A program made the translations under genes and the position numbers. From IMG/VR virus record IMGVR_UViG_3300027969_002350, positions 1-64,000 of that record: DNA of 64,000 nucleotides. The stretch is one strand, 5' to 3'. The DNA is from a virus. Below are positions 28,689-61,480 of this stretch, in pieces (position 1 is the first letter of the stretch; each line of letters starts with the position of its first letter). Under the pieces are notes generated by a model, which was given only the letters and a program-made list of their open reading frames with translations, did not search any database and had not been told where the DNA came from.

Positions 28689-28704
28689 TGCCCATTTTTC
28701 TTTA
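28674..28704. terminator. Bidirectional rho-independent terminator
   Basis: Perfect 11-bp stem GAAAAATGGGC / GCCCATTTTTC (28674-28684 and 28690-28700) with loop ATAAT; A/T runs on both sides. It lies between convergent genes. Confidence 0.8.
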
Positions 28705-30018
28705 TGTCCTAACAGGTAATATTTCATGTACCTTTGGGGGTGGTAATAGTTTTTCAGTGTCTGGCGGTAGGGCATCTATTATTTCAACTAACCAAGGAAA
28801 TGTTACTTTCCAGTCAGTGCCTCGTTTTTTATCAAGTCTGCCTAAAAATAATGACAAATCTAATATGTGCCCGGGTTGCGTCGTAGATCCTTCTATTTCA
28901 TTAAAAATGGCGGCAACATATTCTTTATAATTGGAACCTTTAGTAAAAATTTTCTCGTTTAATTCTAATAGTTCTTTAAAGTATTTTGTATAAGTACCTT
29001 TAGGCATAATATGCGGATCAAACATTATAGGGTTTATGCATTTATTATAGTTAACTTCAATGTGTTTTATTTTTTGCCATTCTACAACTTTTCTAATTAG
29101 TTTTGCAGTATACGGAATACTCAATGTACTCACTGTTAAATTAAATTGCATTTTAATGTTATCTTCTTGGCACTCGTTTAGTATGTATAATAAATTTTCT
29201 TCAAATGTTTCCATGTCATGGCCAAAGCGAATATATTCGCTTTCAGATCCCCAACAATCAATACTAGCAGTTATTTCTACACAACGAACTGTTTTAGAAA
29301 GATCTTTAATTTTTCTAATGCCACGTTTAAATAGTTCTGGTTTGATTTGTAAGTTACTATAAATCTCAGCGTCTACTTCTAAATTAGGATGTGCAATCAT
29401 CCAATCAATACAATCATATGTCTCTTGCTGGATAAAAGGTTCGCCGCCAAGAATGTCAAATGCTCGTAGACTAGAATAATTTTCTTCCATCCAAGTATAA
29501 AATTTTGCAAGACGTACTTTATAATTTGCATCTAGATCCCACGGATCCATGCCATTTACTCTGCCTTCGCCTATTGATTGTTTTTCTAATAACCATGCAC
29601 TACTTTGATTTGGTCCGCAGTAAACACATTTCATATTGCATTTATTATTAAAATGCACAGATAGCATTGTCGGTTTAACTCTTACTGCTGATGGATTAGT
29701 TAATAACTCCGATGGTACATATCTAGCATTTTCATCATTTTTTAAAAATTGTATTCGATCACTTAAACCACTGTGAAGTTCTTGATCTCTACAATGTTCA
29801 CAACCGCGGCCGTCGCTGGGCCATTCACCGCGTAACATTTTTTCTCTGTGTTCAACTACTGGTCCAGAATTATGAAAATCATAATCATCTGCTATAAATG
29901 AATTTTTGTTCCTGTGACAGCCACTGCTCATGTTTTCCCATAGGTACAAACTAACTTGACTCCATTTTAATAGACAGGCTTTGTCGCTGGGAGGCGGAAA
30001 CCATTTTGCTAATGACAT
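28702..30018 (-). CDS. Radical SAM protein, N-terminal twitch type
   Basis: 438 aa. The radical SAM cluster CNMKCVYC (C127, C131, C134) is followed by the LGGEPF loop. N-terminal Cys residues (C15, C34, and C73/C76 in GCEHC) sit where N-terminal twitch-type enzymes hold an extra Fe-S cluster. Twitch/SPASM enzymes usually act on peptides, proteins or sugars. Ribosome site AAGGATA. It follows the second radical SAM gene on this strand and is transcribed into the 28.68-kb terminator. Confidence 0.85.
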   Translation of the reverse strand: MSLAKWFPPPSDKACLLKWSQVSLYLWENMSSGCHRNKNSFIADDYDFHNSGPVVEHREKMLRGEWPSDGRGCEHCRDQELHSGLSDRIQFLKNDENARYVPSELLTNPSAVRVKPTMLSVHFNNKCNMKCVYCGPNQSSAWLLEKQSIGEGRVNGMDPWDLDANYKVRLAKFYTWMEENYSSLRAFDILGGEPFIQQETYDCIDWMIAHPNLEVDAEIYSNLQIKPELFKRGIRKIKDLSKTVRCVEITASIDCWGSESEYIRFGHDMETFEENLLYILNECQEDNIKMQFNLTVSTLSIPYTAKLIRKVVEWQKIKHIEVNYNKCINPIMFDPHIMPKGTYTKYFKELLELNEKIFTKGSNYKEYVAAIFNEIEGSTTQPGHILDLSLFLGRLDKKRGTDWKVTFPWLVEIIDALPPDTEKLLPPPKVHEILPVRT

Positions 30019-30030
30019 ATTTTATCCTTT

Positions 30031-31371
30031 TTAACTACTCGTATTTATTACATTCATTTTAGCCCACCACTCTTGTAAAAATGGATAGTCTTTTATAACA
30101 TCTGTTATGTATGATTTTCTTATGGTATCTGTTTTGTTTGCCCATGTAACGCCTCGGCAAAGTCTTTCTAATTGGTGAGTATTAAGTTTATCTAAATTTA
30201 CATTTGTTCTATGTTCTATAATATTTGCTATTGATTCTAACTGTTGATAAGAATAAGGAAGCAATGTATCTTTATAATCTTTTATTATTGTTCTAAATTC
30301 TTCCAACCAAGGTTTTTTGTATTCACCCAAAAACTCAAATCCTAAATGCCAATTATTTTGATTAGGCTTAATCAAAGTAGCACTGGCAATATCTGCTTGT
30401 TCTTCTACTAAAAATTCAATAAACTCTCGCAGGCCAGATAGACTCAAATTTGTTAATGTGATGCCTGCTCGTATAGTATGCTCATAGTCTTCTCTTGTTT
30501 CTTTATATCTAAAACTGTTATGAATTATTCTAAAATTTGTTTTCCATTTTTCCCAGTTTAATCCAGTTCTGATATATTCAGCGGCTTTCCCGCCACTCTC
30601 TATACTTGCATGAACATACACCATGTTAAACTTGTTAATCATTTCTACAAAGTCATAACCTTTAAATTTTAATATACTAAGATTTGTTATGTAAGACATG
30701 TAAATATCTTCGTAGTCACAGTTCTGTATTAAATGATTCATAAAGTCCCAATGAACTTCGTGAAACAGCGGTTCTCCGCCCACCCATTGAATATAGTCGA
30801 GAACTCCGGCATCGGCTGCCGCTTGCATTTCTTTTAATAAATGTTCTTGTCTTAAATCTTTATCAAAGTTAGTTATATTAGGACGAGTATCAGAATCTTC
30901 GTATCCTACATGCTCGATTCCATGTGCATCTTCCTCATGTTCAATTGCTGAGCTAGCAAACCAATCACAATGTCTACATTTATAATTGCAGATATTATTA
31001 AATCTATAATCAAAACTTCGCATTGGCATTGTTGTAGTACCATCTGGTGCTGTTTTTTCTAATGATTCTAGGTAAAACTTTTTATATCTTTTATTAAAAC
31101 TATCTTTATAAGAATTAACCCTAGTAACCTTGTTACCCTGTACATTGCAGTTATAACAATCTTTTGGCAATATTCCATTCATCATTTGATGTCTAATAGA
31201 TTTAAGATGCGGGGAATTTTGATAATCGTCTAAACTATGAGGATTTAATAGCTCGCCCTTTTCATCAAATGCGCTAGGAGACATACTACAGACTTTTCTA
31301 AGATAATCCGAATTGTGATGTGCATGAAGCCATGGTGCCAGACAAAAATTCTCAGGTATTACAATATTCAT
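30031..31371 (-). CDS. Radical SAM protein, N-terminal twitch type
   Basis: 446 aa from the ATG at 31371 (MNIVIPENFCLAPWLHAHH), chosen because the FCxxPWxH block opens this protein family and a late promoter box precedes it by 5 nt; longer versions run into the promoter. N-terminal Cys are C10, C28 and C72/C75; the radical SAM motif is CNYKCRHC (C128, C132, C135), with VGGEPLF as SAM loop. The end reads FLQEWWAKM. The substrate is unknown. It is divergent from the small-gene cluster starting at 31438. Confidence 0.85.
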   Translation of the reverse strand: MNIVIPENFCLAPWLHAHHNSDYLRKVCSMSPSAFDEKGELLNPHSLDDYQNSPHLKSIRHQMMNGILPKDCYNCNVQGNKVTRVNSYKDSFNKRYKKFYLESLEKTAPDGTTTMPMRSFDYRFNNICNYKCRHCDWFASSAIEHEEDAHGIEHVGYEDSDTRPNITNFDKDLRQEHLLKEMQAAADAGVLDYIQWVGGEPLFHEVHWDFMNHLIQNCDYEDIYMSYITNLSILKFKGYDFVEMINKFNMVYVHASIESGGKAAEYIRTGLNWEKWKTNFRIIHNSFRYKETREDYEHTIRAGITLTNLSLSGLREFIEFLVEEQADIASATLIKPNQNNWHLGFEFLGEYKKPWLEEFRTIIKDYKDTLLPYSYQQLESIANIIEHRTNVNLDKLNTHQLERLCRGVTWANKTDTIRKSYITDVIKDYPFLQEWWAKMNVINTSS

Positions 31372-31376
31372 GCTGT

Positions 31377-31384
31377 TATTTATA
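31377..31384 (-). promoter_or_regulatory. T4-type late promoter octamer (minus)
   Basis: TATAAATA on the minus strand, 5 nt before the ATG at 31371, the same unusually short spacing as at 2943 and 37556. Confidence 0.65.
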
Positions 31385-31402
31385 GAACTGATTCTTGACA
31401 AA

Positions 31403-31431
31403 TTGACACAAATTGATTCCGAGTGTATAAT
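31403..31431 (+). promoter_or_regulatory. Sigma70-type promoter, candidate leaderless start
   Basis: TTGACA (31403-31408), 17 nt, TATAAT (31426-31431); ATG follows after 6 nt at 31438. First member of the repeated promoter series. Confidence 0.8.
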
Positions 31432-31437
31432 TACGTT

Positions 31438-31680
31438 ATGAACAAAGAAAAAGTAAACGAAATTGTACAGTGGACTGGTGCGTTTTTTATTACAGCCGGC
31501 CACGTCCTAAATACACTTGGTAGCGCATACCACCAAGATTTTTGGAATATTGCGGCATTTGCAGTTGGAACAACCCTGTTTTTAACATGGACAATCCGTG
31601 TTGCAAATAAGCCACAGATGGCTGTTAACATAGCCGCATTGGCTACAATGGCAGTCGGACTATACAAAGCCTTTAATTGA
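31438..31680 (+). CDS. Small membrane protein (candidate leaderless)
   Basis: 80 aa from the ATG at 31438. Three hydrophobic segments: VQWTGAFFITAGHVLNTLG, WNIAAFAVGTTLFLTWTI and MAVNIAALATMAVGLY. It probably sits in the inner membrane. The -10 box ends only 6 nt upstream of the ATG, so no ribosome site fits. Its stop codon overlaps the next promoter. Function unknown. Confidence 0.65.
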   Translation: MNKEKVNEIVQWTGAFFITAGHVLNTLGSAYHQDFWNIAAFAVGTTLFLTWTIRVANKPQMAVNIAALATMAVGLYKAFN

Positions 31681-31705
31681 CACAAATTGGTTTTGGCTAT
31701 ATAAT
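31677..31705 (+). promoter_or_regulatory. Sigma70-type promoter, repeat unit
   Basis: TTGACA, 17 nt, TATAAT (31700-31705). The block TTGACACAAATTGGTTTTGG (31677-31696) recurs exactly at 31891-31910. The ATG at 31712 follows after 6 nt. Confidence 0.85.
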
Positions 31706-31711
31706 ACTTGT

Positions 31712-33921: not shown

Positions 33922-35037
33922 ATGGCAAAAGTAAATAAAGGCGGAGTCGGCGAACCCCGTACAGTAAAGATAACAGAAGCAAAGCGTCTCGTTCGCCATG
34001 CTATGAAGAAAAAACGTCCAGTGTTCCTTTGGGGTCCTCCAGGCGTGGGTAAATCCGACCTTGCCGCTCAGTTGGCAGATGAAATGGGCGGAGCACTAAT
34101 TGACGTTCGTTTGAACTTGTGGGAACCTACAGACATTAAAGGTATCCCTTACTATAACGCAAAAGAAAATGTAATGAGCTGGGCTCCTCCAGCAGAACTG
34201 CCCACTAAAGAGTTTGCCGCAAAGCATCCTGTGGTAGTGCTATTCCTAGACGAGCTTGCAGGTGCGGCTCCTGCTGTACAGGCCGCGGCTTACCAACTTA
34301 TCCTTAACCGCAAGGTAGGTACATACGAACTGCCAGACAATGTTGTTATTATGGCGGCAGGTAACCGTATGACAGACAAGGGTGTAACTTATCGTATGCC
34401 TACTCCGCTAGCTAACCGCTTTGTTCACTTTGAACTTCGTGTAGACTTTGCAGACTGGAATGTTTGGGCATTACAAAACCGTATCCACCCGGACGTGGTA
34501 GGTTACCTTAACTACCAAAAAGCAGACCTGTACAACTTTGATCCTACAGTACACGACCGCAGTTTTGCCACTCCACGTAGTTGGATGTTCGTCAGCGACT
34601 TGCTTGATGACGACATGACAGACAACGAGCAGACAGATACTGTAGCAGGTTGTGTTGGTGAAGGTCTTGCTATTAAGTTTATGGCACACCGTAAGATTGC
34701 CGCAGACTTGCCTACTCCTACAGACGTGCTGTCTGGTAAAGTTAAAGAACTAAAGACTAAAGAAATTAGTGCTATGTATTCTTTGACAACTGGTATGTGC
34801 TACGAGCTCAAAGACAACTACGAGACTGCTAAAAAGGCAGGTAAGCTAGACACATGGCATACTAACTGTGAAAACTTTATCCAGTTTATGATGGATAATT
34901 TTGAGGCAGAGATGGTTATTATGGGTGCCCATACAGCACTTAAGAATTACAACTTGCCCTTTGACCACAAGAAGCTTAAGAACTTTCCAGACTTCTTTAA
35001 ACGCTACGCTCACTTGGTAGTGGATGTCAGTAACTAA
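33922..35037 (+). CDS. MoxR-type AAA+ ATPase
   Basis: 371 aa. Walker A GPPGVGKS (38-45), Walker B VVVLFLDELAGA (about 104-115) and a sensor-1-like AAGNRM are present, with the pore segment WEPTDIKGIP. MoxR ATPases usually act as chaperones with a VWA-domain partner, and a VWA protein lies two genes downstream. RavA-ViaA is a known bacterial example; a phage pair is unusual. Possible roles are assembly of metal enzymes, virion maturation or host take-over. The small gene at 35024 overlaps its 3' end. Confidence 0.85.
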   Translation: MAKVNKGGVGEPRTVKITEAKRLVRHAMKKKRPVFLWGPPGVGKSDLAAQLADEMGGALIDVRLNLWEPTDIKGIPYYNAKENVMSWAPPAELPTKEFAAKHPVVVLFLDELAGAAPAVQAAAYQLILNRKVGTYELPDNVVIMAAGNRMTDKGVTYRMPTPLANRFVHFELRVDFADWNVWALQNRIHPDVVGYLNYQKADLYNFDPTVHDRSFATPRSWMFVSDLLDDDMTDNEQTDTVAGCVGEGLAIKFMAHRKIAADLPTPTDVLSGKVKELKTKEISAMYSLTTGMCYELKDNYETAKKAGKLDTWHTNCENFIQFMMDNFEAEMVIMGAHTALKNYNLPFDHKKLKNFPDFFKRYAHLVVDVSN

Positions 35038-35353
35038 GACAAACAAAGAAGGGGACTTGATCCCTTTCTTGCCTAATACAGTTGACTTGGTATATGGTGG
35101 CATGGACTATGCTAGAAGTGTGTTTGGTACAGCAAAAATCTCCAGAACACTGATAGTAAACTATTTTGACAATGCCAGACGTACATGGCCCAATGCAGAT
35201 ATACCTCATGGCTTCAGTAGGTATTCTGTGACAAGTTGGTGTAAGGAACGTGGCATCAAACCTTTGCACTACTATACACCAATGTCAGAGAGAACAGTTT
35301 GGTTTAGGGAAGAGTCAGACTTATTTGCATTTAAACTAAGGTTTGGAATCTAA
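35024..35353 (+). CDS. Small protein between MoxR and VWA genes
   Basis: 109 aa, start overlapping the MoxR stop by 14 nt, so co-translated. Sequence GMDYARSVFGTAKISRTLIVN, then RYSVTSWCKERGIKPLHYYT, resembles a small DNA-binding or adaptor protein, but no named family. It may bridge the ATPase and VWA functions, which is a guess from position. Confidence 0.6.
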   Translation: MSVTKTNKEGDLIPFLPNTVDLVYGGMDYARSVFGTAKISRTLIVNYFDNARRTWPNADIPHGFSRYSVTSWCKERGIKPLHYYTPMSERTVWFREESDLFAFKLRFGI

Positions 35354-35382
35354 TTGACATTAAATAAGTTTATGTGTATAAT
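35354..35382 (+). promoter_or_regulatory. Sigma70-type promoter for the VWA gene
   Basis: TTGACA (35354-35359), 17 nt, TATAAT (35377-35382), ribosome site CAGGAG before the ATG at 35404. Confidence 0.85.
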
Positions 35383-35403
35383 AGATACATACAGGAGCAC
35401 AAT

Positions 35404-36597
35404 ATGAAATTCACAACAAAAGATAGACTTACTAAAGCCCGTGTTAAGATGTTGCTTAAACATCCTTTCTGGGGTAACTTGGCAACTCGTCTTAAAATGG
35501 TAGAGAACAGCGAGTGGTTGACAACTGCCGCTACAGATGGTCGCCACTTTTACTATTGTGAAAAGTTTATTGAAAGTCTAGACGACGAGGAACTAGTGTT
35601 CTTGTTTGGACACGAAGTTGGTCACATTGTCTATGACCACATGGGACGCCGTGGAGACCGAGATCCGCAATTATGGAACATGGCCGGAGACTATCTTATC
35701 AACGACATGCTTATCCAAAACAATGTAGGCAAAAAGATTACCAAGGTGCCAATCCTTTGGGATCCTAAATTCCGTGACATGACAGCAGAAGAAGTCTATG
35801 ACGACTTGTTTAAGAACGCTGTTAAGATCCAAGTTACTTTGGACATGCACATGGACGGCAGTGGCGAAGAAGGTGAAGACGGTAAAGGCAGTGACGGCAA
35901 GTCTAAGTCAAGTGGTATTAAGATTGACGAAGAGACTGCCAAGAAGATGCGTGACGAGATGAAAGAAGCTATCCTGCAAAGTGCTCAGGCCGCAGGTGCA
36001 GGTAACGTTCCGGCAGGCATTAAACGTCTTATTAATAACTTTACTGCTCCTAAGATGCGCTGGCAAGACCTGTTGCGTATCCAATTGGAATCTAGTCTTA
36101 AAAGTAATTATAGTTTTATGCGTCCCAGCCGTAAGGGTTGGCATACAGGTGCAGTACTGCCGGGTATGTTGCCAGCAGAAGAATTGGATGTAGTAATTGG
36201 TATTGACATGTCTGGCAGTATTAGCCAAGAGATGGCACAAGACTTCTTATCAGAAGTTAAAGGCATGATGGATTTGTATCCTACTTACAAAATCCATGTA
36301 TTCTGTTTTGATACAGAAGTGTACAATCCTGTGACGTTCAGCGATGACTATGGAGATGACATTAGTACATACGAAACAATGGGTGGCGGCGGAACTGACT
36401 TTGACGCTTGCTTCCGTTACATGAAGGAAGAAGACATTAATCCAAAACAATTTATTATGTTTACAGACGGCTACCCATACGACAGTTGGGGTGACGAAAA
36501 CTACTGCGACACGTTATTTGTTGTACATGGCAATGAACAGATAGAAGCACCATTTGGTGTAACAGCACATTATACTTTTGACAACGAAACTGTATAA
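35404..36597 (+). CDS. VWA-domain protein with metallopeptidase-like N-terminus
   Basis: 397 aa from the ATG at 35404. The N-terminal half has HEVGHIVYDH (70-79), an HExxH zinc-protease-like motif as in DUF2201-type proteins. After a disordered Gly/Lys/Asp linker (about 148-175), the C-terminal VWA domain carries the MIDAS motif DMSGS (268-272) and a GGGGTDF loop. Such proteins pair with MoxR AAA+ ATPases, as seen here. The target is unknown. It is followed by a minus-strand gene. Confidence 0.85.
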   Translation: MKFTTKDRLTKARVKMLLKHPFWGNLATRLKMVENSEWLTTAATDGRHFYYCEKFIESLDDEELVFLFGHEVGHIVYDHMGRRGDRDPQLWNMAGDYLINDMLIQNNVGKKITKVPILWDPKFRDMTAEEVYDDLFKNAVKIQVTLDMHMDGSGEEGEDGKGSDGKSKSSGIKIDEETAKKMRDEMKEAILQSAQAAGAGNVPAGIKRLINNFTAPKMRWQDLLRIQLESSLKSNYSFMRPSRKGWHTGAVLPGMLPAEELDVVIGIDMSGSISQEMAQDFLSEVKGMMDLYPTYKIHVFCFDTEVYNPVTFSDDYGDDISTYETMGGGGTDFDACFRYMKEEDINPKQFIMFTDGYPYDSWGDENYCDTLFVVHGNEQIEAPFGVTAHYTFDNETV

Positions 36598-44819: not shown

Positions 44820-45045
44820 TTTTTTCGTAGATAAATTTTACTTCTTTGCCTGGTCCTGCTTCGCTGGGCAGGCCGCCATACTCTTTAATATACCAAGTAA
44901 TAGCAGCCTTGTACCATCCTGTGCTATCATGCCTACTTTCTTTATTAAACTTATATATGTTATCATTGGTTGCTTCCATGCTACTAATAATTCTAGCGGC
45001 TTCTAATTGTAACACTCTTAAGGGCATTGTGTCAAGGTCTATCAT
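44812..45045 (-). CDS. Small protein between two radical SAM genes
   Basis: 77 aa. Charged, helical start (LRVLQLEAARIISSMEA), then GWYKAAITWYIKEYGGLP, and an acidic end. It overlaps both neighbouring radical SAM genes (ATGA and 8 nt), so its product is made together with theirs. It might be a partner or substrate for one of them, but it has no leader-core layout of a modified peptide. Confidence 0.55.
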   Translation of the reverse strand: MIDLDTMPLRVLQLEAARIISSMEATNDNIYKFNKESRHDSTGWYKAAITWYIKEYGGLPSEAGPGKEVKFIYEKNE

Positions 45046-52558: not shown

Positions 52559-53616
52559 TGCTTTAATATGTTTTCTTTATTCAGCTTATCGTTAACATAA
52601 AGAGTTGTGTTCTCTTGACTTCCGCATGTGTGTAAACATGTAATTAAATTGCCGTTTTCTATTGTGTCATTCCATTTTGAACTTATATTATACTGCATTT
52701 TTAGCACGTCGTCAACCGAATGTAAATTCAAATCAAAGTCTTTTAAATTGTAATTCTCATTAAGATTCCAACTGCCAGGACTATCGTGTGTATGTGTGCC
52801 CAAATAACAACAAGGCATTAATAGCCCGTTTGACGACAAATATATATCTTTACGTTCTAAGCTCTTACAAGTAATTTTATTTCCATTTAATTTAGAATAA
52901 TTTTTAATATCAAATTTGAACAGCGTGATTGGTATATGTTCTTCCTTGCCTACATTAGTATGTCTAAATTGTTCTTGATTGGGAGGCTCTAAGGTAAAAA
53001 CTTGTTTGCCTTCTATCATAACTTTAAAGTCTTTTTTGCCACGAAACTTTTGAGTTACTTTTAATCTAAACTTAATGCCCAGTTCTTCTGCTAATTGCTT
53101 TGCTTCATTAACTTGATGTTCATTATGTTTAAATGCTATGAAATTCCATTGTGCTTGGCCGCCAGCGGCAACATAGGCTTTTAAGTTGACATATACTTTA
53201 TCATATTTGACACCAATTCTATATTTCCCTAGTGCTTCGTTGTCAGTTCCATCTAAGGCAAAGTTAATCATTACATTAGGACGAGCAAGACTAGCCCACC
53301 ATTCTTCGCCACGATAGCCGCCATTAGTATCAACACTAACACTTTTACATCCGTTGTCTATTAAGTAGTTGACAAACTCCGGCAATGATTTATTTAAGCA
53401 AGGGTCACCGTATACTCCACTAAAGTATACATGGTCGAGTTGTCTGGTAAATTCTTTAGTAAACAACTTATAAAAAACTTCAGGAGTTAAGTCTCCTTCT
53501 TCCAAATCTGGTTGCACAAATCCATCACCAGTGTATCTACTACACATAGGACATTGGCTGTTACAACGACTGCTTGCTTCAACGTGTATTAATCTAATAT
53601 CTTCTTTAGCTATCAT
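52555..53616 (-). CDS. Radical SAM/SPASM protein
   Basis: 353 aa from the ATG at 53616, which overlaps the upstream stop (ATGA); longer starts lie inside the upstream gene. CNSQCPMC (C18, C22, C25) begins the protein after HVEASSR. FSGVYGDP replaces the usual GGEP loop. C-terminal Cys groups (ITCKSLE, MPCCYLG, CLHTCGS) form a SPASM-like set. It resembles the proteins at 58280 and 60308. Confidence 0.87.
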   Translation of the reverse strand: MIAKEDIRLIHVEASSRCNSQCPMCSRYTGDGFVQPDLEEGDLTPEVFYKLFTKEFTRQLDHVYFSGVYGDPCLNKSLPEFVNYLIDNGCKSVSVDTNGGYRGEEWWASLARPNVMINFALDGTDNEALGKYRIGVKYDKVYVNLKAYVAAGGQAQWNFIAFKHNEHQVNEAKQLAEELGIKFRLKVTQKFRGKKDFKVMIEGKQVFTLEPPNQEQFRHTNVGKEEHIPITLFKFDIKNYSKLNGNKITCKSLERKDIYLSSNGLLMPCCYLGTHTHDSPGSWNLNENYNLKDFDLNLHSVDDVLKMQYNISSKWNDTIENGNLITCLHTCGSQENTTLYVNDKLNKENILKQ

Positions 53617-54434
53617 TTTGCAATAGTGGTCATCATACTTAAACCACATTTCATAGTCACACCATTCCTTGGAAAGTTTGTTCCGCTGTGTGCTTGGCAT
53701 CTATCAAAAACAACTATGCCGCCACGCTTCCAGTTATACACCCCTTCTAATTCAAATCCATCTAACCATTCGCGCTTGAAATGACTAAAGTAGTTTTTAT
53801 AATCTTCATCGCTGATTGTGCGCTTATTCCAATCTACATCCCATACTGTGCCGTCTCGATGATAACAAGGCATTCCTCGATAATCACTGATAGTATAAAA
53901 TACATTTGTTTCATACTGTGGACTATTTTTAGCAAAGTTTGTTCCGTACATCATAAATCTATTCTTAAAGATAGCAGTCCCTGCCATAGGATTTTCTTCT
54001 TCTTTATTAGTATGACAAACCCATAGCGGGATAATAAACTGTTTGCCCGGAACGCTGTTACTGTCCTTTAATGTATTTGGATTTCCTGTGTCAATATGCA
54101 AATTATAAGGTGTTGCTGTGATTAAGAAGTTGCCTTCCCATATTGTTTCATTGGTCAATTCTGGAATTACTTCTTTTAGTTTGCCAAAGAATTTATCCTG
54201 TATACGTTTATTATCTACGTTAAAGTGCAACGTTCCGTTATGCTTAACTCTGCGTGTTCGATGTTCACGATGCATTAAATCTTCTAACCAAACTAATTCT
54301 TCTTCGTCAAATACATTATCTACAGCATAGCTACTATCACTCCAAGTACTCATCCATTTTGGATGTTCTATTGGATCTACAGGAATAAATTCTTTTACTA
54401 TATTATCTCCTGGTACGTATTCTAAATTAACCAT
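53613..54434 (-). CDS. 2OG-Fe(II) oxygenase-like protein
   Basis: 273 aa. TPYNLHIDTGNP supplies a candidate HxD, KQFIIPLWVCH is a following strand, and VVFDRCQAHSGTNF holds a possible distal His with later Lys/Arg residues. The layout resembles phage PhyH-type oxygenases. It sits inside the minus-strand radical SAM chain and overlaps the next gene by 4 nt. The substrate is unknown. Confidence 0.65.
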   Translation of the reverse strand: MVNLEYVPGDNIVKEFIPVDPIEHPKWMSTWSDSSYAVDNVFDEEELVWLEDLMHREHRTRRVKHNGTLHFNVDNKRIQDKFFGKLKEVIPELTNETIWEGNFLITATPYNLHIDTGNPNTLKDSNSVPGKQFIIPLWVCHTNKEEENPMAGTAIFKNRFMMYGTNFAKNSPQYETNVFYTISDYRGMPCYHRDGTVWDVDWNKRTISDEDYKNYFSHFKREWLDGFELEGVYNWKRGGIVVFDRCQAHSGTNFPRNGVTMKCGLSMMTTIAK

Positions 54435-55182
54435 GATAATGTTCCTTTATATATTTTAATATGTAATCTGCCAAAAACTCATTGCCGTCGTGATCCCAAT
54501 GTCGACAGCTAGCTGGAGATATACCAGATTCCACTAGAAAATTATTTGCATTAATGTCATAATTTAAATCATCTTTAAATTTTATCATTGGAATAGTATG
54601 GCCTAATTGTATTGGCTCTATTGTTTCAGGTTCGGCTAACATTTCAAAGAAATAATGTTCTATATTTAATGATTCTAATAATGTATGCATCATTACTACT
54701 TTTCGATTAATTTCCTCGACGTCATTGGTTCTATGATGAAATGTCGAATAATATATTTCAAAAAAATGTCGTTCTCTTTTATTAAATTGATCTGCATTTT
54801 TTTTACGATCTATTGTTGTAAATTCATCTTCGGCAATTAAATTATCAAGAGTGTTAATATTGATCATCCAGCTTCCTAGTGAAATATATTTTACATAATC
54901 ATCATAACAATATATCAATTCTTTACGTGACAATTCAGTTAATGAGATTATAACTACTAAATCCGCAGTATTATTATTTTTTAAATGTTCAAAAAGTACC
55001 CTTTCTGATCTATCATTGCTGCCGCCAGGAGCTCCTAAATTGATACTATCTCTAAAGTTACCCAATCTTTCTAATTTTTTAACCCAACTTCGTTCGTGAC
55101 ATGTTATTGGGTCATTATCTTCTCCAAGAGTTCCAAATACATGACTACAACCTACAGCAACCAATGTCTTTCCTTCAAACAT
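54427..55182 (-). CDS. SGNH-hydrolase-like protein (tandem copy)
   Basis: 251 aa. VAVGCSHVFG replaces the usual GDS block, and GAPGGSNDRSERV is the Gly/Asn block of SGNH folds. It shares MFEGKTL, GCSH, CHERSWVKKLE and the GNF-SINL block with its upstream neighbour at 55175, so it is a tandem duplicate. The catalytic Ser of GDS appears to be shifted (CSH), so it may be a non-standard esterase or a carbohydrate-related enzyme. It overlaps genes at both ends. Confidence 0.65.
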   Translation of the reverse strand: MFEGKTLVAVGCSHVFGTLGEDNDPITCHERSWVKKLERLGNFRDSINLGAPGGSNDRSERVLFEHLKNNNTADLVVIISLTELSRKELIYCYDDYVKYISLGSWMININTLDNLIAEDEFTTIDRKKNADQFNKRERHFFEIYYSTFHHRTNDVEEINRKVVMMHTLLESLNIEHYFFEMLAEPETIEPIQLGHTIPMIKFKDDLNYDINANNFLVESGISPASCRHWDHDGNEFLADYILKYIKEHYHG

Positions 55183-55879
55183 TTTTCATTTCCTTTATGC
55201 GATTATAAAATAATTCTGCTAAGAATTGATGTGCATCATGATCGAAATGTCCAGTATAATCTGGAACATACCCTTGTTCCATAATATAACGGATTGCATT
55301 AGTTGCATCACCGTATTTGTTTTTAAAATTTAGTAATGGTAATTTAATTCCAAATGGATTATCGACAATGCTACCACCATGGCAATGTAATTCTATAAAA
55401 TAATGTTCTATATTAAATTTGTTTAAAAATGTATTTAAGAATAATAGTGTTCTATTAATCATAACTGTTTCGTATTGTGTACTATGAAATTTTCCATATA
55501 AAATTTCCATAAAGGTTATTTCTTTAGGATCACTTGTAAATTCTTTATTAACACTCCAGGGACCAAACGGTTTCATTGTATAGAAATGAGTGAATGTTTG
55601 ATCTGGTAATGGAATTTCAAATCTAGATAAATCGGTTAAGCCGAATGCAATAACTAAATTTGAAACTTCGTGTGTTTCTAAGTATTCCATCAATACACGT
55701 TCAGAGCGTTGATTGCTTGCTCCTTCTAATGATAGATTGATACTGTTTTTAAAATTTCCTATATTCTCTAATTTTTTGACCCAACTGCGTTCATGACAAC
55801 TTAATGGATTAATATCCTCACCTAGCGGAGCAAATGTATGACTACACCCAACTCCTAGTAGTGTCTTACCTTCAAACAT
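55175..55879 (-). CDS. SGNH-hydrolase-like protein (tandem copy)
   Basis: 234 aa. LGVGCSHTFA and LSLEGASNQRSERVL repeat the layout of the neighbour; CHERSWVKKLE is identical in both. Differences concentrate in the C-terminal half. The C-terminal FDHDAHQFLAEL could hold the DxxH-type His. It overlaps the radical SAM gene at 55872 by 8 nt. Confidence 0.65.
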   Translation of the reverse strand: MFEGKTLLGVGCSHTFAPLGEDINPLSCHERSWVKKLENIGNFKNSINLSLEGASNQRSERVLMEYLETHEVSNLVIAFGLTDLSRFEIPLPDQTFTHFYTMKPFGPWSVNKEFTSDPKEITFMEILYGKFHSTQYETVMINRTLLFLNTFLNKFNIEHYFIELHCHGGSIVDNPFGIKLPLLNFKNKYGDATNAIRYIMEQGYVPDYTGHFDHDAHQFLAELFYNRIKEMKNV

Positions 55880-57272
55880 CTTTAAAAATATCTTTCATCT
55901 CTGGGAAGGTAGTATAAAAATTAGTACCTCGCTGTTTATCTAATAGCTCTAAGTATTCTTTCATTTCTGGCAAACGCACACTCCAGTCTTCACTCTTAGC
56001 AAATTTAACCATACCGCGAAGACGATCTATACCGTAATCTGCATTTAACCATTGTTCTTCAGTTACTTTACCTTGATGCCATGCTGGCACGCCTTTTTGC
56101 CAATTAGCTTTCCACCACGGAATAAACTCTTCGTACTTGCGTTCAATCTCATCTTTAAACCATGCTGGCAATATCTTAACATTTAAATGTGGTGGATGAT
56201 AAACAAAGTGATAGTTAATGCCGCCAGCACCAAATGGCCACATGTTAATCTTCTTAAAGCCATGTTCTAGCTTCCACTTTAAAAACTCTGGGATATAATA
56301 AATGTTCAGTGCTTGCACGGCACAGGCAATTGATATCTCTACATTTTTTCCTGTCTCGTTATCTAACTGTCTAAATGCTTCTAAGTTTCTTTCCCACTTA
56401 CTTGGATAACGAATATAATCATTACGTTCTTCTATAGCATCAACACTATAGTGATAACGAACTAGTTTAAAATGACTCCATAATTCAAATAAATCTTCAC
56501 GCCACTCGACACCATTGCTGTTATAACGTATTTCCATGTCCTTGGCATAGCCACGCTTAATACATTCTTCTAGAATAGCATAATGCTCTTCAATGATTAA
56601 AGGCTCGCCTCCAGCAAAGTAAAGCTGTTTCATATTAGGAATCTGTTCCCATAACTGTTCCCAGAATTGAGGATTGCTCTTATGCCAATTATAACTGGCA
56701 CCGTTCTCTTGTCCTTTGTTACCCCATTGCATACTATCTTTAAGTACAGGATTAGTAACGTTAGGATACATCTTTTGCCATTCAGGAACCCATAAACTAC
56801 TATCATGCGGACTACACATCACACATGCCAGGTTACATTTAGTACCAAACCTCATGTCAATATAAGCAATATGCGGGGGGACGCTACCGTCTTCTTGGGT
56901 GTCTTCTAATAGTTTGTCTAGATCGACACGTTGGCTCCAGTATTTTGTTTCCCATTCACGTTTAGATTTATGTCCTTCACGTTCTTCCTTGTAACACTTA
57001 GTACAGCTATCTGGTTCTTCACCTGCTAGCATTTTAAGTCTTGTATTCTTCATGTAGTCATTATTCCAACTACTTAGAAAGTCTGTGTGATTTAAATTTG
57101 CGGGTTTACCATCGGCATTTTTGAGAATACCGACTTCGCCGCCATGAATTTTGTCGTTTGTTGGGCCTACTGAACTTGCATTGGCGGTACAGCAGACTCG
57201 CATATGTCCGTTGGGTCGTGTGCTTAAATGTACCCACGGAAGGATACAAAATGTTTTACTTGGAGTTGTCAT
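55872..57272 (-). CDS. Radical SAM protein, N-terminal twitch type
   Basis: 466 aa. N-terminal FCILPWVHLSTRPNG with C9, C27/C28 and C90/C93; radical SAM CNLACVMC (C146, C150, C153); AGGEPLI loop; the later SVDAIEERNDYIRYP block matches the other members. The long N-terminal section between the CC pair and C90 is a variable insert. It is the first gene after the 57.28-kb hairpin on this strand. Confidence 0.88.
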   Translation of the reverse strand: MTTPSKTFCILPWVHLSTRPNGHMRVCCTANASSVGPTNDKIHGGEVGILKNADGKPANLNHTDFLSSWNNDYMKNTRLKMLAGEEPDSCTKCYKEEREGHKSKREWETKYWSQRVDLDKLLEDTQEDGSVPPHIAYIDMRFGTKCNLACVMCSPHDSSLWVPEWQKMYPNVTNPVLKDSMQWGNKGQENGASYNWHKSNPQFWEQLWEQIPNMKQLYFAGGEPLIIEEHYAILEECIKRGYAKDMEIRYNSNGVEWREDLFELWSHFKLVRYHYSVDAIEERNDYIRYPSKWERNLEAFRQLDNETGKNVEISIACAVQALNIYYIPEFLKWKLEHGFKKINMWPFGAGGINYHFVYHPPHLNVKILPAWFKDEIERKYEEFIPWWKANWQKGVPAWHQGKVTEEQWLNADYGIDRLRGMVKFAKSEDWSVRLPEMKEYLELLDKQRGTNFYTTFPEMKDIFKDV

Positions 57273-57321: not shown

Positions 57322-57639
57322 TTAATCTTTTCCTTGTTGCTGTACTTTACGGACAAAAGGATGTTTCGGAGAGTCGGTGCCACAGGTATCTAGACAAGTC
57401 GAAAATGGTTCGTCTGTATCAAAAGAGTCTTTTAATTTATCGTATGCTTTGATAATATCTTCTTTAGCATTAGTAATAAAAATTCTTTTATAGTCCTCCC
57501 CTAAAAACTTTTCTAAGGCATTGTGGCGTCTCTTTGTACTTACTAACCAGCAACAAGGTGCAACTAAGCCAGTAAACTCAATAAAAACACCCGGATGTTT
57601 AACGCAAAACGGATTTACTTTTTTGTTGGTTGAATTCAT
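57322..57639 (-). CDS. SPASM-like domain, separated from its radical SAM half
   Basis: 105 aa. Contains FCVKHPGVFIEFTG, VAPCCWLVSTK and FSTCLDTCGTD: the Cys layout of the C-terminal SPASM-like domain in the proteins at 52555 and 60308. It lacks the radical SAM core, which is encoded just upstream in another frame. A +1 shift at the A-run joining both frames would fuse them into one protein of normal size. It is either a broken gene, a sequence error or a true frameshift site. Confidence 0.75.
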   Translation of the reverse strand: MNSTNKKVNPFCVKHPGVFIEFTGLVAPCCWLVSTKRRHNALEKFLGEDYKRIFITNAKEDIIKAYDKLKDSFDTDEPFSTCLDTCGTDSPKHPFVRKVQQQGKD

Positions 57640-58270
57640 TTTCTATTTCCTCAAATGGGCGACTAGGTGCTAACCAATCATTTCCTCCCGGTACAACAAC
57701 TAATGCATGTTGTAATTCAAAACCTATTCCTAATTCAATACTTTTTTCATAAGCATCCATGATCGTATTTTCATTAAATGAAAATACGATATGTTTCCAT
57801 TTAATTCTAGCTTTTTTAACTTTTGTATTATTGACTTTGACACATGATTTAATAGCGGTTTCAACATCTTCCCATTCTGAATTAACTCGATATTGCATAT
57901 AGTTTTCCGGACTGCCGTCTATACTAAAGAACAACAAATCATGTTCATTAAATTCAGCCATTAACCTTTCCCACCACTCTGCAGATTTGCCTGAGCCGTT
58001 GGTATGTGTTATAATTTGACAAGTAGGATGTGCTTGTTTAACTGAGCGCACTAGTCCAATAAAATCTTTACTGTATATTGGATCTCCCCAATTACCGCAA
58101 AACGTAATAACTTCTGGATTGCAGCCAAGCAAGAATTCTTTGAAATATTCAATATCCATATCAAACATATTGTGAATATACTTGTTATGCGGTGTTGTTC
58201 TTGTACATTCTAAACAAAGCAATCTACATCGGTTTGTTAATCCAACATGTAAGCATGTAAAATCAATCAT
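57599..58270 (-). CDS. Radical SAM core domain, separated from its SPASM half
   Basis: 223 aa. CRLLCLEC (C15, C19, C22) is the cluster motif, FCGNWGDPIYS the GGEP-equivalent loop and FSIDGSPENYMQYR the SxDG block. It ends where the downstream SPASM-like frame starts, with a 41-nt overlap containing a run of six A on the minus strand (T6 at 57618-57623). Alone it would lack the extra Fe-S clusters of its family. Confidence 0.78.
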   Translation of the reverse strand: MIDFTCLHVGLTNRCRLLCLECTRTTPHNKYIHNMFDMDIEYFKEFLLGCNPEVITFCGNWGDPIYSKDFIGLVRSVKQAHPTCQIITHTNGSGKSAEWWERLMAEFNEHDLLFFSIDGSPENYMQYRVNSEWEDVETAIKSCVKVNNTKVKKARIKWKHIVFSFNENTIMDAYEKSIELGIGFELQHALVVVPGGNDWLAPSRPFEEIENEFNQQKSKSVLR

Positions 58271-58279: not shown

Positions 58280-59347
58280 TTATATTAAAGTATAGTTACC
58301 TATCGGTAATACTTCTAGTTTTTTCACATTGCATACTTCAGTGCAACGATGAATACGATCAATTTTATTTATACCGTGTTCTTTTGATTGCCAACTACTA
58401 ACTAAGTTGTCTGTGTAAAATTCGTGTGCTAGTATTTCTTCAACAGAATATTTAGTCAGGTCGTTCCAGTCATTACTGCCATACGATTCAAATAATCGTT
58501 GTTGTAAAATTTCTGCTCGGCCACGATCCATGTTCATAAACCCATTGTGTAAAAAACAGCAGGGCCATAGCTTACTATCAAAACCAATGAAATACATTTT
58601 CTTTGTTTGATTATTACATTGTATTTCATTATCTACTGAATCTTTAAATGCTTCATTAACTGAGTCGATGGTACTTTTATAATCTTTGCGCTTTATATTA
58701 TCTACTTTAATTTTTTGAATTAATTGTAAACCTAGACTAGTTGCCACGCTTCTATCATGTCTGCTCATAAACTCTTTAAACTGCATCTTAACACTTAATG
58801 CTTTTGCATCCATAATCTGATGCTCATTCCAAGGGAATATTAAATATTGCCAGCCTGCATTGCCTCCTGCGCCAATAAAAGCATTTGCATTTTCTATAAT
58901 CTTAGACCATGTAGTATTTTGTCTGTATATATGATTAGTATCTTCCATGCCATCAATACTAAATTTAACCATATGTCTGTCATGCTTCTTTAGCACTTGA
59001 GCTAATTTAGTCCAGTATTTTACACTACGTAAGCTGGCATTTGTATGAATTATAATATTGTATTTGCCCACAGTACTTGCAAAATCTAAGAAATCTAAAA
59101 ATTCAGGATGCATTAAAGGATCGTCGATTGTTCCACAAAACTCTAACTCGATGACTGATTTAAATTCTGGTGCTAGTAAAATCTTTTTGAATGTTTCAAA
59201 TTTAATATATTCTTTATCAGGAATAACATATTTCTTTTCATTGAACGAATTACCGTCTGTTCTAACACAGCCCAGACATAGTGCATTGCACATGCTACTA
59301 AGTTCGAATTGTAGCTTGGTGGCCGCGGATAGATATGTATTATTCAT
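58280..59347 (-). CDS. Radical SAM/SPASM protein
   Basis: 355 aa. FELSSMCNALCLGC (C20, C24, C27); FCGTIDDPLMHPEFLDF in the GGEP position; FSIDGMEDTNHIYRQNTTW; C-terminal WPCCFLHNGF and HRCTEVCNVKK carry the SPASM-like Cys. It shares SIDGxEDTNHxYRQ and the NEHQ block with the gene at 60308, so both are paralogues. It overlaps the gene at 59340 by 8 nt. Confidence 0.87.
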   Translation of the reverse strand: MNNTYLSAATKLQFELSSMCNALCLGCVRTDGNSFNEKKYVIPDKEYIKFETFKKILLAPEFKSVIELEFCGTIDDPLMHPEFLDFLDFASTVGKYNIIIHTNASLRSVKYWTKLAQVLKKHDRHMVKFSIDGMEDTNHIYRQNTTWSKIIENANAFIGAGGNAGWQYLIFPWNEHQIMDAKALSVKMQFKEFMSRHDRSVATSLGLQLIQKIKVDNIKRKDYKSTIDSVNEAFKDSVDNEIQCNNQTKKMYFIGFDSKLWPCCFLHNGFMNMDRGRAEILQQRLFESYGSNDWNDLTKYSVEEILAHEFYTDNLVSSWQSKEHGINKIDRIHRCTEVCNVKKLEVLPIGNYTLI

Positions 59348-60311
59348 AATTAAGTTCTTTTGGTATTAACACATCAGCAGTACACATGCACCAATCTTCT
59401 TTACATTTTACTGACTGTGTTAGCAGGCCACTAAAATTAAAAATACTAGTAAATGGTTTTAATTGTGCTGTTCTGCATGTTGCCATATATATAGAACCAG
59501 TATCATCTACATATATATGATCCATGCCCATATTACAGTCCCATCCTTTAAATTTATTTGTTCTATTGTTAACGGCTTCTACTTCGTCAAATCTAGAAAC
59601 AACATCAAATTCGTCTTTAATAAAAGTATTACCATAATAGTTATGAATAGGTGCAGGTTTAATTGCTCCACGAATGTTCAATCCTGTATTTGCAGATAAC
59701 CAACTTAATTGTTCGGTATTATATTCATAACTAATAGATAGTCCACTTTGATTGTTGTTTCTTTGAAATACCCTACTAGGTTCTAACGTTATGTTAGGCA
59801 TATCTTTAAGTCTTTCAAATGCATCTACACTTTTTTCCCAGTAAGGAGAAACTGGATACATTAAAGTAACTATGCCGATATTAGTTTGTGTGCCAATGAA
59901 TCTAATTTTTTCAAATATTTCTTCATCTGCACTTTCTGGGTGATAGCTAATTGTAACTTTATAAATTTTAGGGGCATATTCCCTCCACCATTCTATGCTT
60001 CTACTTCCGTTTGTATTAACATATACACACCAACCAGCTTCATTACAAAAATCAATAATTGTTTCTAAACTGGGACTAATAGTAGGTTCACCACCATTTA
60101 CAAATACATGTACGCTTCTTCCGATAACTTCTTTTTGTATGTTGGTAAGAAATTTTTTAATTATTACAGGATCTTCTTGTTTACTTTTAAAAACATTTGT
60201 ACCTGTGTGGAGGGATGGCGGACAATAGCTACAATGATACGTGCAAAGAGTATTCAATGTCCAATCAATAATAAATCGATTTGTCTCATTGTAAATTTTA
60301 ATAGTTTTCAT
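59340..60311 (-). CDS. Radical SAM protein with C-terminal Cys cluster
   Basis: 323 aa. WTLNTLCTYHCSYCPP (C23, C27, C30); VNGGEPTISPSLETI as SAM loop; C-terminal WDCNMGM, ATCRTA and CKEDWCMC carry extra Cys. It resembles the gene at 43653 in the FxxxxLxxxCxYxCSYC layout. Start overlaps the next gene upstream by 4 nt. The substrate is unknown. Confidence 0.85.
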   Translation of the reverse strand: MKTIKIYNETNRFIIDWTLNTLCTYHCSYCPPSLHTGTNVFKSKQEDPVIIKKFLTNIQKEVIGRSVHVFVNGGEPTISPSLETIIDFCNEAGWCVYVNTNGSRSIEWWREYAPKIYKVTISYHPESADEEIFEKIRFIGTQTNIGIVTLMYPVSPYWEKSVDAFERLKDMPNITLEPSRVFQRNNNQSGLSISYEYNTEQLSWLSANTGLNIRGAIKPAPIHNYYGNTFIKDEFDVVSRFDEVEAVNNRTNKFKGWDCNMGMDHIYVDDTGSIYMATCRTAQLKPFTSIFNFSGLLTQSVKCKEDWCMCTADVLIPKELNYE

Positions 60312-61480
60312 TTAAATTGTTCTTTAAAGGCATCGTATTTAGTACCACATGTCTTGGCACAAACTGCTAACTTACCTTCTGCACAACTGGGCTTAGTCCA
60401 CGATCCTGGAACAACTTCTTGGATGAATTTGCCGTTGATAACATCATTTAAATCGTGTACACGCAGATCTAAACTGTCAAGGCCTGCACTATCAATAGCA
60501 TCCCAAATTTGGCCGCCGCGTTCTTTCCAATACCAAACATACATCTGCCCAGCTGTCCAACAACATGGCTGTAGATATCCTTCTGCTGTAATGTAAATGC
60601 TTTTTTCTTCAGCAACTTTACATTTAACTTCAACAGAGTCCCAGTACTTTTCCATGTCTTTTTTCTTATCAAGATCTAAATTAAATTTCTGGCTACCTAT
60701 TTTACCTTCAAGTTCTGCTACAGTTGAAATAAAATCAATTTTAACTTCACCTTTGTCTTTACTTAAACTTTCTAATTGCTTTAATGCGGCATTTTGATAT
60801 TCGGGATTCTTAGGCATACTTAACAACGTAGTTTCGTTGCCTTTACGATTTCCTGCTTGATGTTCTGCTTTAACTGCACCTCTAGTATTGCTAAAGAACC
60901 TATTGGACTTTTTGACATTAAACTTTTCAAAGCCCATGCTAGTTGCTAATGCTCTAGCTTCTTCAACTTGATGTTCGTTATGTCCAAATACAATATAGTC
61001 CCAACGAGCTCTACCGCCGGCGGCTATAAAGGCTTCTGCATTACGCATAATGTTTTTCCATACCGTGCCTTGTCGATACAAGTGATTAGTATCTTCTAAG
61101 CCGTCTACACTGAATACAACATAATGACTTTTACCCATAGCGGCAGGCAACTTACTCCACCATTCAGGAGTTTTAGCACTGGCATTTGTGTGAAAGCTCA
61201 ATTGCATTTTAGCATTGTGGCTGCGAATATATTCAAATATCTCTAATGTATCTCTGGCACTAATTGGGTCACCATAGTTGCCGCACATATACAATCGTTT
61301 TAATTGTTTGATGAATTTAGGTTTTAGTATTGTTTTAACATCATCTAAGCTAAGTTCAGCGTCATGTAATTGTGGATTAACTTCGCCGCCATTGATGTTT
61401 CTAGCACATTGAGGACAACTAGCATTACAGCGTTCTGTAACTTCTAAGTGAACTGTGGCGATTTCATTAGCTTTATACAT
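60308..61480 (-). CDS. Radical SAM/SPASM protein
   Basis: 390 aa. HLEVTERCNASCPQCARN (C18, C22, C25), MCGNYGDPISARDTLEI, FSVDGLEDTNHLYRQGT, and a C-terminal set of Cys (EVKCKVAE, QPCCWTA, SCAEGK, VCAKTCGTK). The NGGEVNP segment follows the cluster motif. It resembles 52555 and 58280 and carries the most complete SPASM-like end. It abuts the methyltransferase gene with a 1-nt overlap. Confidence 0.88.
   Translation of the reverse strand: MYKANEIATVHLEVTERCNASCPQCARNINGGEVNPQLHDAELSLDDVKTILKPKFIKQLKRLYMCGNYGDPISARDTLEIFEYIRSHNAKMQLSFHTNASAKTPEWWSKLPAAMGKSHYVVFSVDGLEDTNHLYRQGTVWKNIMRNAEAFIAAGGRARWDYIVFGHNEHQVEEARALATSMGFEKFNVKKSNRFFSNTRGAVKAEHQAGNRKGNETTLLSMPKNPEYQNAALKQLESLSKDKGEVKIDFISTVAELEGKIGSQKFNLDLDKKKDMEKYWDSVEVKCKVAEEKSIYITAEGYLQPCCWTAGQMYVWYWKERGGQIWDAIDSAGLDSLDLRVHDLNDVINGKFIQEVVPGSWTKPSCAEGKLAVCAKTCGTKYDAFKEQFK

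Follow-up and report, generated by a model that had tools for sequence, protein, structure and literature searches.

A phage-borne island of radical SAM genes with a conserved three-enzyme core, shared with some Bdellovibrionota and possibly of new chemistry

The question of what a phage does with a long row of radical S-adenosylmethionine (radical SAM) genes is raised by IMG/VR record IMGVR_UViG_3300027969_002350, a sequence of 90,493 bases, of which positions 1–64,000 form the window, that is, the whole stretch of 64,000 nucleotides analyzed here (higher positions are those of the record). An earlier note on this stretch had listed fourteen such genes, and had proposed that they form a stepwise pathway to an unusual surface glycan, a modified virion protein, or a small molecule. 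All fourteen are present, in an array that is in fact larger (15), while the idea of one stepwise pathway is weakened by the finding that a core of three radical SAM enzymes is conserved, and most of the other radical SAM genes vary among phages. The reading preferred here, with a probability of roughly 45%, is that the island encodes a modular glycan or glycoconjugate pathway on a jumbo phage, with a gene pool in common with the Bdellovibrionota, which would remodel the surface of the infected cell or the virion.

The core is formed by the genes referred to here as T55 (55,872–57,272), R43 (43,653–44,819), and R60 (60,308–61,480), all on the minus strand. The T55 protein has an N-terminal twitch/SPASM-like domain, and matches the NCBIfam family NF033640 at E 5e-129, R43 has conserved C-terminal auxiliary-cluster cysteines (C313, C335, C356, and C361) and a score of 54 bits against the Pfam family Radical_SAM (PF04055), and R60, which scores 42 bits, has conserved SPASM-like cysteines in its C-terminal region. 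In the best 80 of 180 related IMG/VR stretches (69–100% identity), where the flanks of T55 extend for up to 10 kb or to the end of the contig, R60 is found at ≥45% identity within 10 kb of T55 at 73 loci, and R43 is seen within the flanks at 35. Two of these loci (L003 and L083) lie on a single 43 kb contig, with 100% identity to the proteins of the window, and represent a near-duplicate among the 80. Most of the other radical SAM genes are found, at ≥45% identity, in a minority of the 80 loci. In 20 large phage records, which were picked for T55 or R60 and thus contain these two genes by selection, R43 is invariably present in a single copy. In the two records with fully read maps (G001 and G004, the latter a compact version), the orthologues lie in the same order, so that the search for this gene order in other phage contigs, which the earlier note had recommended, has recovered collinear islands, and its expectation of co-inheritance, rather than scatter, is borne out by this order and by the single-copy R43.

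The genes of the core trio rank with the most constrained of those measured, with ratios of nonsynonymous to synonymous substitution rates (dN/dS) of 0.023 in T55, 0.032 in R43, and 0.031 in R60, versus 0.063 in the ThyX and 0.089 in the MoxR ATPase; the NTP-transferase gene at 68,347–69,918 of the record, at 0.032, equals the core. Each value is derived from the one closest pair per gene, and only for genes with a relative at ≥55% identity, and is an upper bound only where dS is saturated. These ratios bear on the possibility that the island is passive “stuffer” DNA or a random cargo, not selected for any function, an idea that has been put forward for the lipopolysaccharide (LPS) gene clusters of cyanophages (PMC3037559), and that would suit the strong variability of the accessory genes. 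However, dN/dS is 0.27 or less in every gene measured, with the core below ThyX and MoxR, and the copy number of R43 and of sp77, a small protein described below, is almost constant. The stuffer explanation was rejected on the dN/dS values, and is considered highly improbable.

The core is also found in bacteria. A scan for T55 in one genome per bacterial or archaeal species, restricted by exact peptide patterns, recovered 15 loci, ten of which (L194–L203) are on Bdellovibrionota contigs, with 59–63% identity; one of the ten, L197, is titled only “bacterium”, and belongs to the same phylum group as the other nine. The other five are in metagenome-assembled genomes (MAGs) of other phyla, and are possibly phage contigs. 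Four of them (L192, L193, L204, and L205) are contigs with phage-type islands, from MAGs assigned to Neisseriaceae, Planctomycetota, Acidimicrobiaceae, and Chloroflexi, and these contigs may be misbinned phage DNA. These four and L206 were not counted as cellular, and the cellular set consists of the ten Bdellovibrionota genomes G023–G032; the bacterial genomes are mostly MAGs. The neighbors of the core in the Bdellovibrionota loci are ordinary bacterial genes, which encode aldehyde dehydrogenase, a sodium:solute symporter, a PHP protein, and MoxR/DUF58 proteins. The suggestion of virion-protein modification in the earlier note is weakened by this setting, given that a core at home in bacteria argues against a purely virion-protein substrate.

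Nineteen Bdellovibrionota loci were chosen for T55 or R43, nine from L194–L203 (L198 being omitted) and ten from further genomes of the 22 with R43. The full trio is present at 15 of these loci, with approximately 43–65% identity between phages and Bdellovibrionota, and 15 of the 19 also have a gene of the phage families for a methyltransferase-like protein or a glycosyltransferase-like protein of the GT-A fold. Of 368 genomes from the Bdellovibrionota phylum group, 22 have R43, and none was found in 398 genomes sampled evenly from the phylum that includes the Neisseriaceae MAG, in a search in which no positive control gave a match. With E 1e-30 as the threshold, 75 of the 240 genomes scanned in the Bdellovibrionota group have the family NF033640, versus 11 of 392 in the phylum to which the Planctomycetota MAG belongs and none of 14 controls, with at most seven and four candidates per genome, respectively, being scored in these phylum-wide tallies. 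At E 0.001, a lax threshold, this family has 5–21 matches per large phage record and 16–37 per genome in G023–G032, and the same search was positive in all 14 controls, none of which exceeds the curated cut-off of 170 bits; the counts over this cut-off and the PF04055 places were used instead. On this basis, the 20 large phage records have 6–20 PF04055 places, and at least 1 to 11 places over the NF033640 cut-off among the matches listed (G015 shows one), while the match list of G023–G032 has 6–19 over-cut-off places per genome, in tandem arrays. These bacterial arrays share the core trio and the tandem arrangement with the phage island, but have ordinary bacterial flanks, and no sp77 was found in them. 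In one region, for example (G024:C1:745513-774880, loci L207 and L208), 13 over-cut-off twitch radical SAM genes lie in approximately 29 kb, together with oxygenase-like genes with 38–40% identity to the one at 47,047 in the window.

In an R43 tree of 52 sequences, all 32 phage-labelled rows, including L204, form one clade (SH-aLRT 99), which lies inside the 20 bacterial rows under midpoint rooting, the root itself not being inferred and the placing branches having a support of 90–92. This topology fits a single acquisition by phages from the Bdellovibrionota. In a tree of 145 twitch proteins, by contrast, phage and bacterial rows are intermixed, and the starred branches force at least 20 changes, or at least 15 in the 134 rows that remain once the doubtful MAG contigs are removed; these are FastTree trees with long branches, built with 80 of the 188 phage representatives, and the change counts are soft. 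Given this mixture, the accessory enzymes seem to belong to a mobile pool, exchanged between bacteria and phages.

The surroundings of the array indicate the type of genome, and of island, in which the core is found. The DNA polymerase is nearest to those of jumbo phages (49% identity in the Sinorhizobium phage Phosso, 46% in the Agrobacterium phage Atu_ph07, and 42% in the Cronobacter phage GAP32), and a protein of 2,385 amino acids, encoded at the right end, resembles large proteins of virion type at approximately 23%, the best matches being in jumbo phages. By these similarities, the 90 kb record most probably represents part of the genome of an uncultured jumbo phage. The IMG/VR records with the same radical SAM core reach 342 kb. 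The array lies in a variable island, with tail-type genes on one side and a plus-strand block on the other, which encodes a MoxR-type ATPase, a VWA/DUF2201 protein, and ThyX. G004 shows the same placement as the window's record, and the island of G001 adjoins the same block. The region at 33,922–36,597 (plus strand), where the MoxR-type ATPase lies near the DUF2201 metallopeptidase/VWA protein, is conserved at 79–93% beside the island in G001 and G004. Between 39.7 and 80.6 kb, the minus-strand genes form a tightly packed run, interrupted solely by three plus-strand genes at 47,047–51,345, and 39 of 41 same-strand junctions either overlap or have a gap of no more than 10 nucleotides, in agreement with the tight chaining described in the earlier note. 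The genes at the end of the run, which we take to be of tail type, include one at 80,626–81,663 of the record, on the tail side of the island edge, whose protein has long Gly-Tyr repeats and is presumably adhesin-like. Past the window, the run also encodes a carbamoyltransferase and proteins resembling KbaZ and shikimate dehydrogenase, all over their Pfam cut-offs, as well as a cupin and a MobA-like NTP-transferase, kinase-like at one end, which fall slightly short of theirs.

The presence of glycosyltransferases in this block is suggested primarily by the minus-strand gene at 63,006–64,000, which continues to position 64,016 of the record. The AlphaFold2 model of its product superimposes on a Leptospira glycosyltransferase over the GT-A domain (residues 1–147), with a Z score of 10.1 and a root-mean-square deviation of 3.1 over 137 residues, and its DxD-type motif (D56/D58) does not vary in any of 20 sequences. 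The profile of this family recovers three more island proteins, encoded at 62,324–63,031 (minus strand, E 8e-40), 64,003–64,731, and 76,588–77,559, the last two being record positions. A GT-A-like relative (≥30% identity) is found near T55 at 69 of the 80 loci, and a relative of the protein at 62,324 at 68, also at ≥30%. The GT-A-fold proteins thus belong to the set, as the GT-like label of the earlier note had implied. The methyltransferase-like gene that adjoins the core (61,480–62,331, minus strand), whose fold was assigned by eye only, with no Pfam match, is likewise a recurrent neighbor in phages and Bdellovibrionota. Profile searches of the PDB with the families of the proteins at 63,006 and 61,480 returned nothing useful.

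The locus is, in short, a variable block that adjoins tail genes and includes glycosyltransferase-like genes, as in the host-recognition or glycan islands of phages, and the radical SAM, nitroreductase, SGNH-like, and oxygenase genes that surround the core vary among phages. A sugar or glycoconjugate pathway is preferred because of the GT-A fold, the sugar-type enzymes in the run, the position beside the tail genes, this variability, and the published parallels in pelagimyophages and cyanophages. The co-inheritance of the core, its bacterial counterpart, and the purifying selection on it also count in favor of this reading. A number of observations weigh against it. Several nucleotidyltransferases come within approximately one Z unit of the GT-A match of the protein at 63,006 (Z up to 9.6), the GT-A fold is also found in nucleotidyltransferases, and Foldseek returned no match with E < 0.001 for this model. 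For T55, R43, and R60, no close relative of known function was found, the best profile match in the PDB having an E of 9e-5 or weaker. Many SPASM-type enzymes act on peptides, and the sugar substrate is therefore a guess. Among the 19 Bdellovibrionota loci, four have neither a GT-A-like nor a methyltransferase-like gene near the core, and in four the trio is incomplete. What is proposed here for the substrate, for the product, and for the beneficiary of the pathway is inferred from the locus.

The action of such enzymes on peptides leads to the main rival explanation, in which the radical SAM enzymes modify sp77, a virion adhesin, or some other protein, and the GT-A enzymes glycosylate the modified side chains. 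It is the main rival because peptides are frequent substrates of enzymes of this type, and also on account of sp77, a protein of 77 amino acids encoded directly 5' of R43 (44,812–45,045, minus strand), in an apparent gap (44,820–45,041) in which it was overlooked in the first gene list. It represents a new family, and is the commonest short open reading frame family in this set (39 distinct sequences at 52 loci), being found near T55 at 43 of the 80. In the 71 sequences fetched by tblastn, some of which overlap, and which include the window, the gene downstream of sp77 is R60 in 43, R43 in seven, another gene in two, and unassigned in 19. By profile search, the window's record and 19 of the 20 other large phage records have one copy each, and G007 has none. 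The gene was not found by the same means in the ten Bdellovibrionota genomes G023–G032, although the core genes are present. Two MAG contigs of doubtful cellular origin (G021:C32 and G034:C1) have it as well.

AlphaFold2 predicts a three-helix bundle for sp77, with a predicted local distance difference test (pLDDT) score of 91. No Pfam or PHROG family was matched above noise, and the best Foldseek match in the PDB has an E of 4, which is no proof of a new fold. As a candidate precursor of a ribosomally synthesized and post-translationally modified peptide (RiPP), sp77 is a widespread short gene, yet the protein is predicted to be folded, unlike a leader-core precursor, and is missing from the ten Bdellovibrionota genomes; its role as a classical disordered precursor was rejected on the basis of this model. 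No other short open reading frame family beside the core, on the coding strand, is as widespread. No PqqD-like RiPP recognition element turned up in the proteins scanned with Pfam, in which no search aimed at such elements was made. In favor of a peptide or protein substrate, it can be added that SPASM/twitch enzymes are often peptide maturases, that there are weak NCBIfam matches to several maturases, that the Gly-Tyr-repeat protein lies at the island edge, and that the top Foldseek match of the protein at 63,006 is a capsid-protein glycosyltransferase (E 2e-3). Virion proteins are, however, impossible as the substrate in bacteria, and, on balance, peptide or protein modification is considered unlikely.

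The accessory part of the array, and its family assignments, bear on a further alternative. Each of the fourteen listed genes has a CxxxCxxC motif, and lies at the coordinates given for it, while 57,322, which had been listed together with 57,599, is a partner open reading frame without the motif. The PF04055 profile matches 12 of the fourteen, nine of them over the cut-off, and the other two, 58,280 and 57,599, for which there was no Pfam detection, are recognized by a profile of the R60 family, which matches 52,555 at E 1e-66, 58,280 at E 2e-53, and 57,599 at E 1e-25, far beyond chance. The C-terminal-cluster assignments of the earlier note thus hold, with four proteins (43,653, 52,555, 59,340, and 60,308) over the Pfam cut-off, and two supported by this profile. 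The assignment of eight proteins to the twitch type is also confirmed, given that all eight match NF033640 over almost the entire profile (E 1e-44 to 5e-129), seven of them over the cut-off. To our knowledge, no reaction or substrate has been assigned to this family, which was named by NCBI.

On the minus strand, the accessory twitch genes are found at 40,984–42,297, with 93% identity in phage G001 and 49% in one Bdellovibrionota genome, at 42,290–43,729 (E 4e-85, with a start probably near 43,660, judged by eye), at 45,042–46,244 (the divergent protein, E 1e-44 and 153 bits, below the cut-off), and at 51,302–52,558 (E 1e-96); the gene at 49,282–51,345 is on the plus strand, and its product has an N-terminal extension of approximately 230 residues, with the match at residues 231–670 (E 3e-74). 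Two detached twitch genes, at 28,702–30,018 (E 2e-64) and 30,031–31,503 (E 6e-72), both on the minus strand, are set apart from the main island by approximately 8 kb of mostly plus-strand genes, and the best G001 match of the former (62%) sits within the island of that phage. A ninth twitch gene, at 75,186–76,586 of the record, brings the array to 15. The remaining accessory radical SAM genes, all on the minus strand, are at 52,555–53,700 (Pfam 40 bits) and 58,280–59,347, which belong to the R60 family, and at 59,340–60,311 (Pfam 36 bits). Outside the array, the gene at 22,676–23,536 (plus strand) is a QueE-like radical SAM gene (phrog_2076, E 3e-51), possibly involved in deazaguanine DNA modification.

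The count of duplications by phylogeny that the earlier note had proposed yielded none that looks recent. Paralogues among the nine twitch proteins share 26–34% identity, two of the nine have no paralogue match at E 1e-20, and all nine have their best match (37–96%) in another phage, which rules out recent tandem duplication within this phage. In three of the large records, neighboring twitch matches are paired in open frames of 850–889 amino acids (G007:C1:196986-199625, G017:C1:154566-157073, and G019:C1:20681-23185), which suggests two units per protein, as in the Bdellovibrionota gene G030:C47:66525-69038. Three related phage records have an in-frame TGA in twitch radical SAM genes (G011:C1:33266-34327, G012:C1:223219-224286, and G013:C1:31854-32921), which are either broken or recoded.

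An NCBIfam scan of ten radical SAM proteins of the window (all but 57,599, 58,280, 59,340, and 60,308) reached no equivalog cut-off of MoaA or of other maturases, and the highest score against the viperin-like family NF038283 was 39.8 bits, far under its cut-off of 180 bits, so that viperin-like defense was rejected. The weak profile matches include MoaA and cytosylglucuronate decarboxylase, which are small-molecule radical SAM enzymes, and the core may, alternatively, make a diffusible or intracellular metabolite, such as a cofactor or a nucleoside or amino-sugar antibiotic. The nitroreductase, the oxygenase, and the carbamoyltransferase are typical tailoring genes. The repeated GT-A genes and the tail-gene neighborhood better fit a surface product, however, and no export or resistance gene was recognized among the scanned proteins, in which no search aimed at them was made. 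A small-molecule pathway is thus taken to be slightly less likely again than the modification of peptides.

Of these partner labels in the earlier note, those of nitroreductase (46,241–46,984, minus strand; PF00881, E 2e-6) and oxygenase (47,047–47,787, plus strand; PF05118, E 9e-9), an Asp/Asn beta-hydroxylase-like protein with relatives at 38–41% in the Bdellovibrionota arrays, were confirmed, together with the glycosyltransferase fold at 63,006, while SGNH, SDR, and methyltransferase, which we take from motifs only, received no Pfam support at E 0.01, except for a match of the protein at 54,427 to DUF6071, below the cut-off. The SGNH-like genes are at 40,256–40,987, 54,427–55,182, and 55,175–55,879, neither the first nor the last having a Pfam match, and the short SDR-like gene at the island edge (39,705–40,259) encodes a protein with 40% identity to one encoded approximately 12 kb from the core trio in Bdellovibrionota. 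A recurrent partner at 53,613–54,434, oxygenase-like by motif only, has 91% identity in G001 and no Pfam match. These five genes are on the minus strand. The plus-strand gene beside 49,282 (47,660–49,285) encodes a protein of 541 amino acids with no Pfam or PHROG match, and with relatives (≥45%) at six of the 80 T55 loci. The PHROG searches of the GT-like, SGNH-like, and unassigned proteins returned nothing useful.

The single entry 57,599/57,322 of the earlier note is correct as to its radical SAM character, and is in fact two genes on the minus strand, encoding the radical SAM half (57,599–58,270, with CxxxCxxC) and the auxiliary-cluster half (57,322–57,639) of a SPASM-type enzyme. In the auxiliary-cluster half, C12, C29, C30, C82, and C86 are invariant in seven sequences. 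Both halves are found as adjacent separate genes in other phages, and comparable pairs of other subfamilies (approximately 230–250 plus 115 amino acids) occur at the Bdellovibrionota loci L207 and L213. A frameshifted pseudogene was rejected, given the recurrent split and the invariant cysteines in both halves, and the pair is, by these sequence criteria, a conserved two-gene enzyme.

A number of phages with several radical SAM genes are already known. The T4-like marine genome TARA_ERS488813_N000010 (183 kb) has 12 (Nishimura 2017, PMC5332604), which makes it similar to the present case, and these genes are discussed there in terms of iron-sulfur metabolism with an A-type carrier; section 14 of that paper describes neither a cluster, nor the core, nor bacterial relatives. 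Here, the carrier family (PF01521) is present in five of 21 records, and absent from the window's record, and a phage-supplied iron-sulfur carrier was thus rejected as a fixed part of the system. The hypervariable host-recognition cluster of the pelagimyophages contains tail fibers and glycosyltransferases, and two genomes differ by radical SAM cassettes (PMC7029224); in the present island, radical SAM genes predominate, and a core of three recurs, in a comparison based on that description and not on the radical SAM sequences. The T4-like cyanophages P-SSM2 and S-SSM7 have large LPS gene clusters (PMC3037559), and the term “radical SAM” is absent from the main text of that paper, just as the word “radical” is absent from the main text of a paper on a different lineage of aquatic jumbo phages (PMC12619734).

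Among the cultured jumbo phages, Atu_ph07, Phosso, and the Vibrio phage K566 have four, four, and six Radical_SAM places, respectively, mostly clustered, and seven others have either none or one. The cluster enzymes of Atu_ph07 and Phosso have no BLAST match to those of the island at E 1e-5, and four twitch proteins of K566 match at 20–25%. The clusters of Atu_ph07 (NC_042013.1:116000-123650) and Phosso (PV764938.1:185270-193015) are small, of other families, and lie near a virion-protein gene; these two phages offer a cultured model in which radical SAM clusters of phages could be examined. Against 50,697 phage records, there was no megablast match of the island, and no tblastn match of R43, sp77, or the protein at 63,006, while T55 matched only two Vibrio phages, at 21%. 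Among the listings returned by searches of the open-license literature, no title or abstract opening describes the three-enzyme core, the split pair, sp77, or the arrays of the Bdellovibrionota. The trio, its link with the Bdellovibrionota, sp77, and the split enzyme appear to be new, whereas multiple radical SAM genes in marine phages and phage glycosyltransferase islands with radical SAM cassettes have already been published.

In the modular glycan or glycoconjugate pathway preferred here, T55, R43, and R60 would make one unusual building block through radical chemistry, which the GT-A enzymes (63,006, 62,324, and their relatives) would transfer, and the accessory radical SAM enzymes would tailor this unit in a strain-specific manner, as in O-antigen loci, with sp77 possibly serving R60 or R43 as a carrier or scaffold. 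The phage may use the product to change the surface of the infected cell, shutting out its rivals, or to modify its own adhesin. A bolder version, which is regarded as somewhat unlikely, is that jumbo phages of predatory-type Bdellovibrionota carry the radical SAM conjugation system of their own host lineage, in which the trio and the GT-A enzymes would make a new class of surface conjugate, the phage-specific sp77 would redirect it, and the accessory arrays, including the split SPASM enzyme, would diversify the product as phages and bacteria compete in an arms race.

The island may be a phage-borne glycan or host-recognition island whose core chemistry is possibly new. The presence of the trio in two very different kinds of genome shows biochemists which enzymes to co-express, and the GT-A genes and sp77 indicate the partners, while the NF033640 enzymes are now seen to fill a phage island, and to recur as arrays in some Bdellovibrionota genomes. 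If the product is indeed a surface conjugate, this would represent a new radical chemistry in the conflict between phages and their hosts, in phages whose island has no close relative among the phage records searched, and the link with the Bdellovibrionota provides a testable guess at the hosts of these phages.

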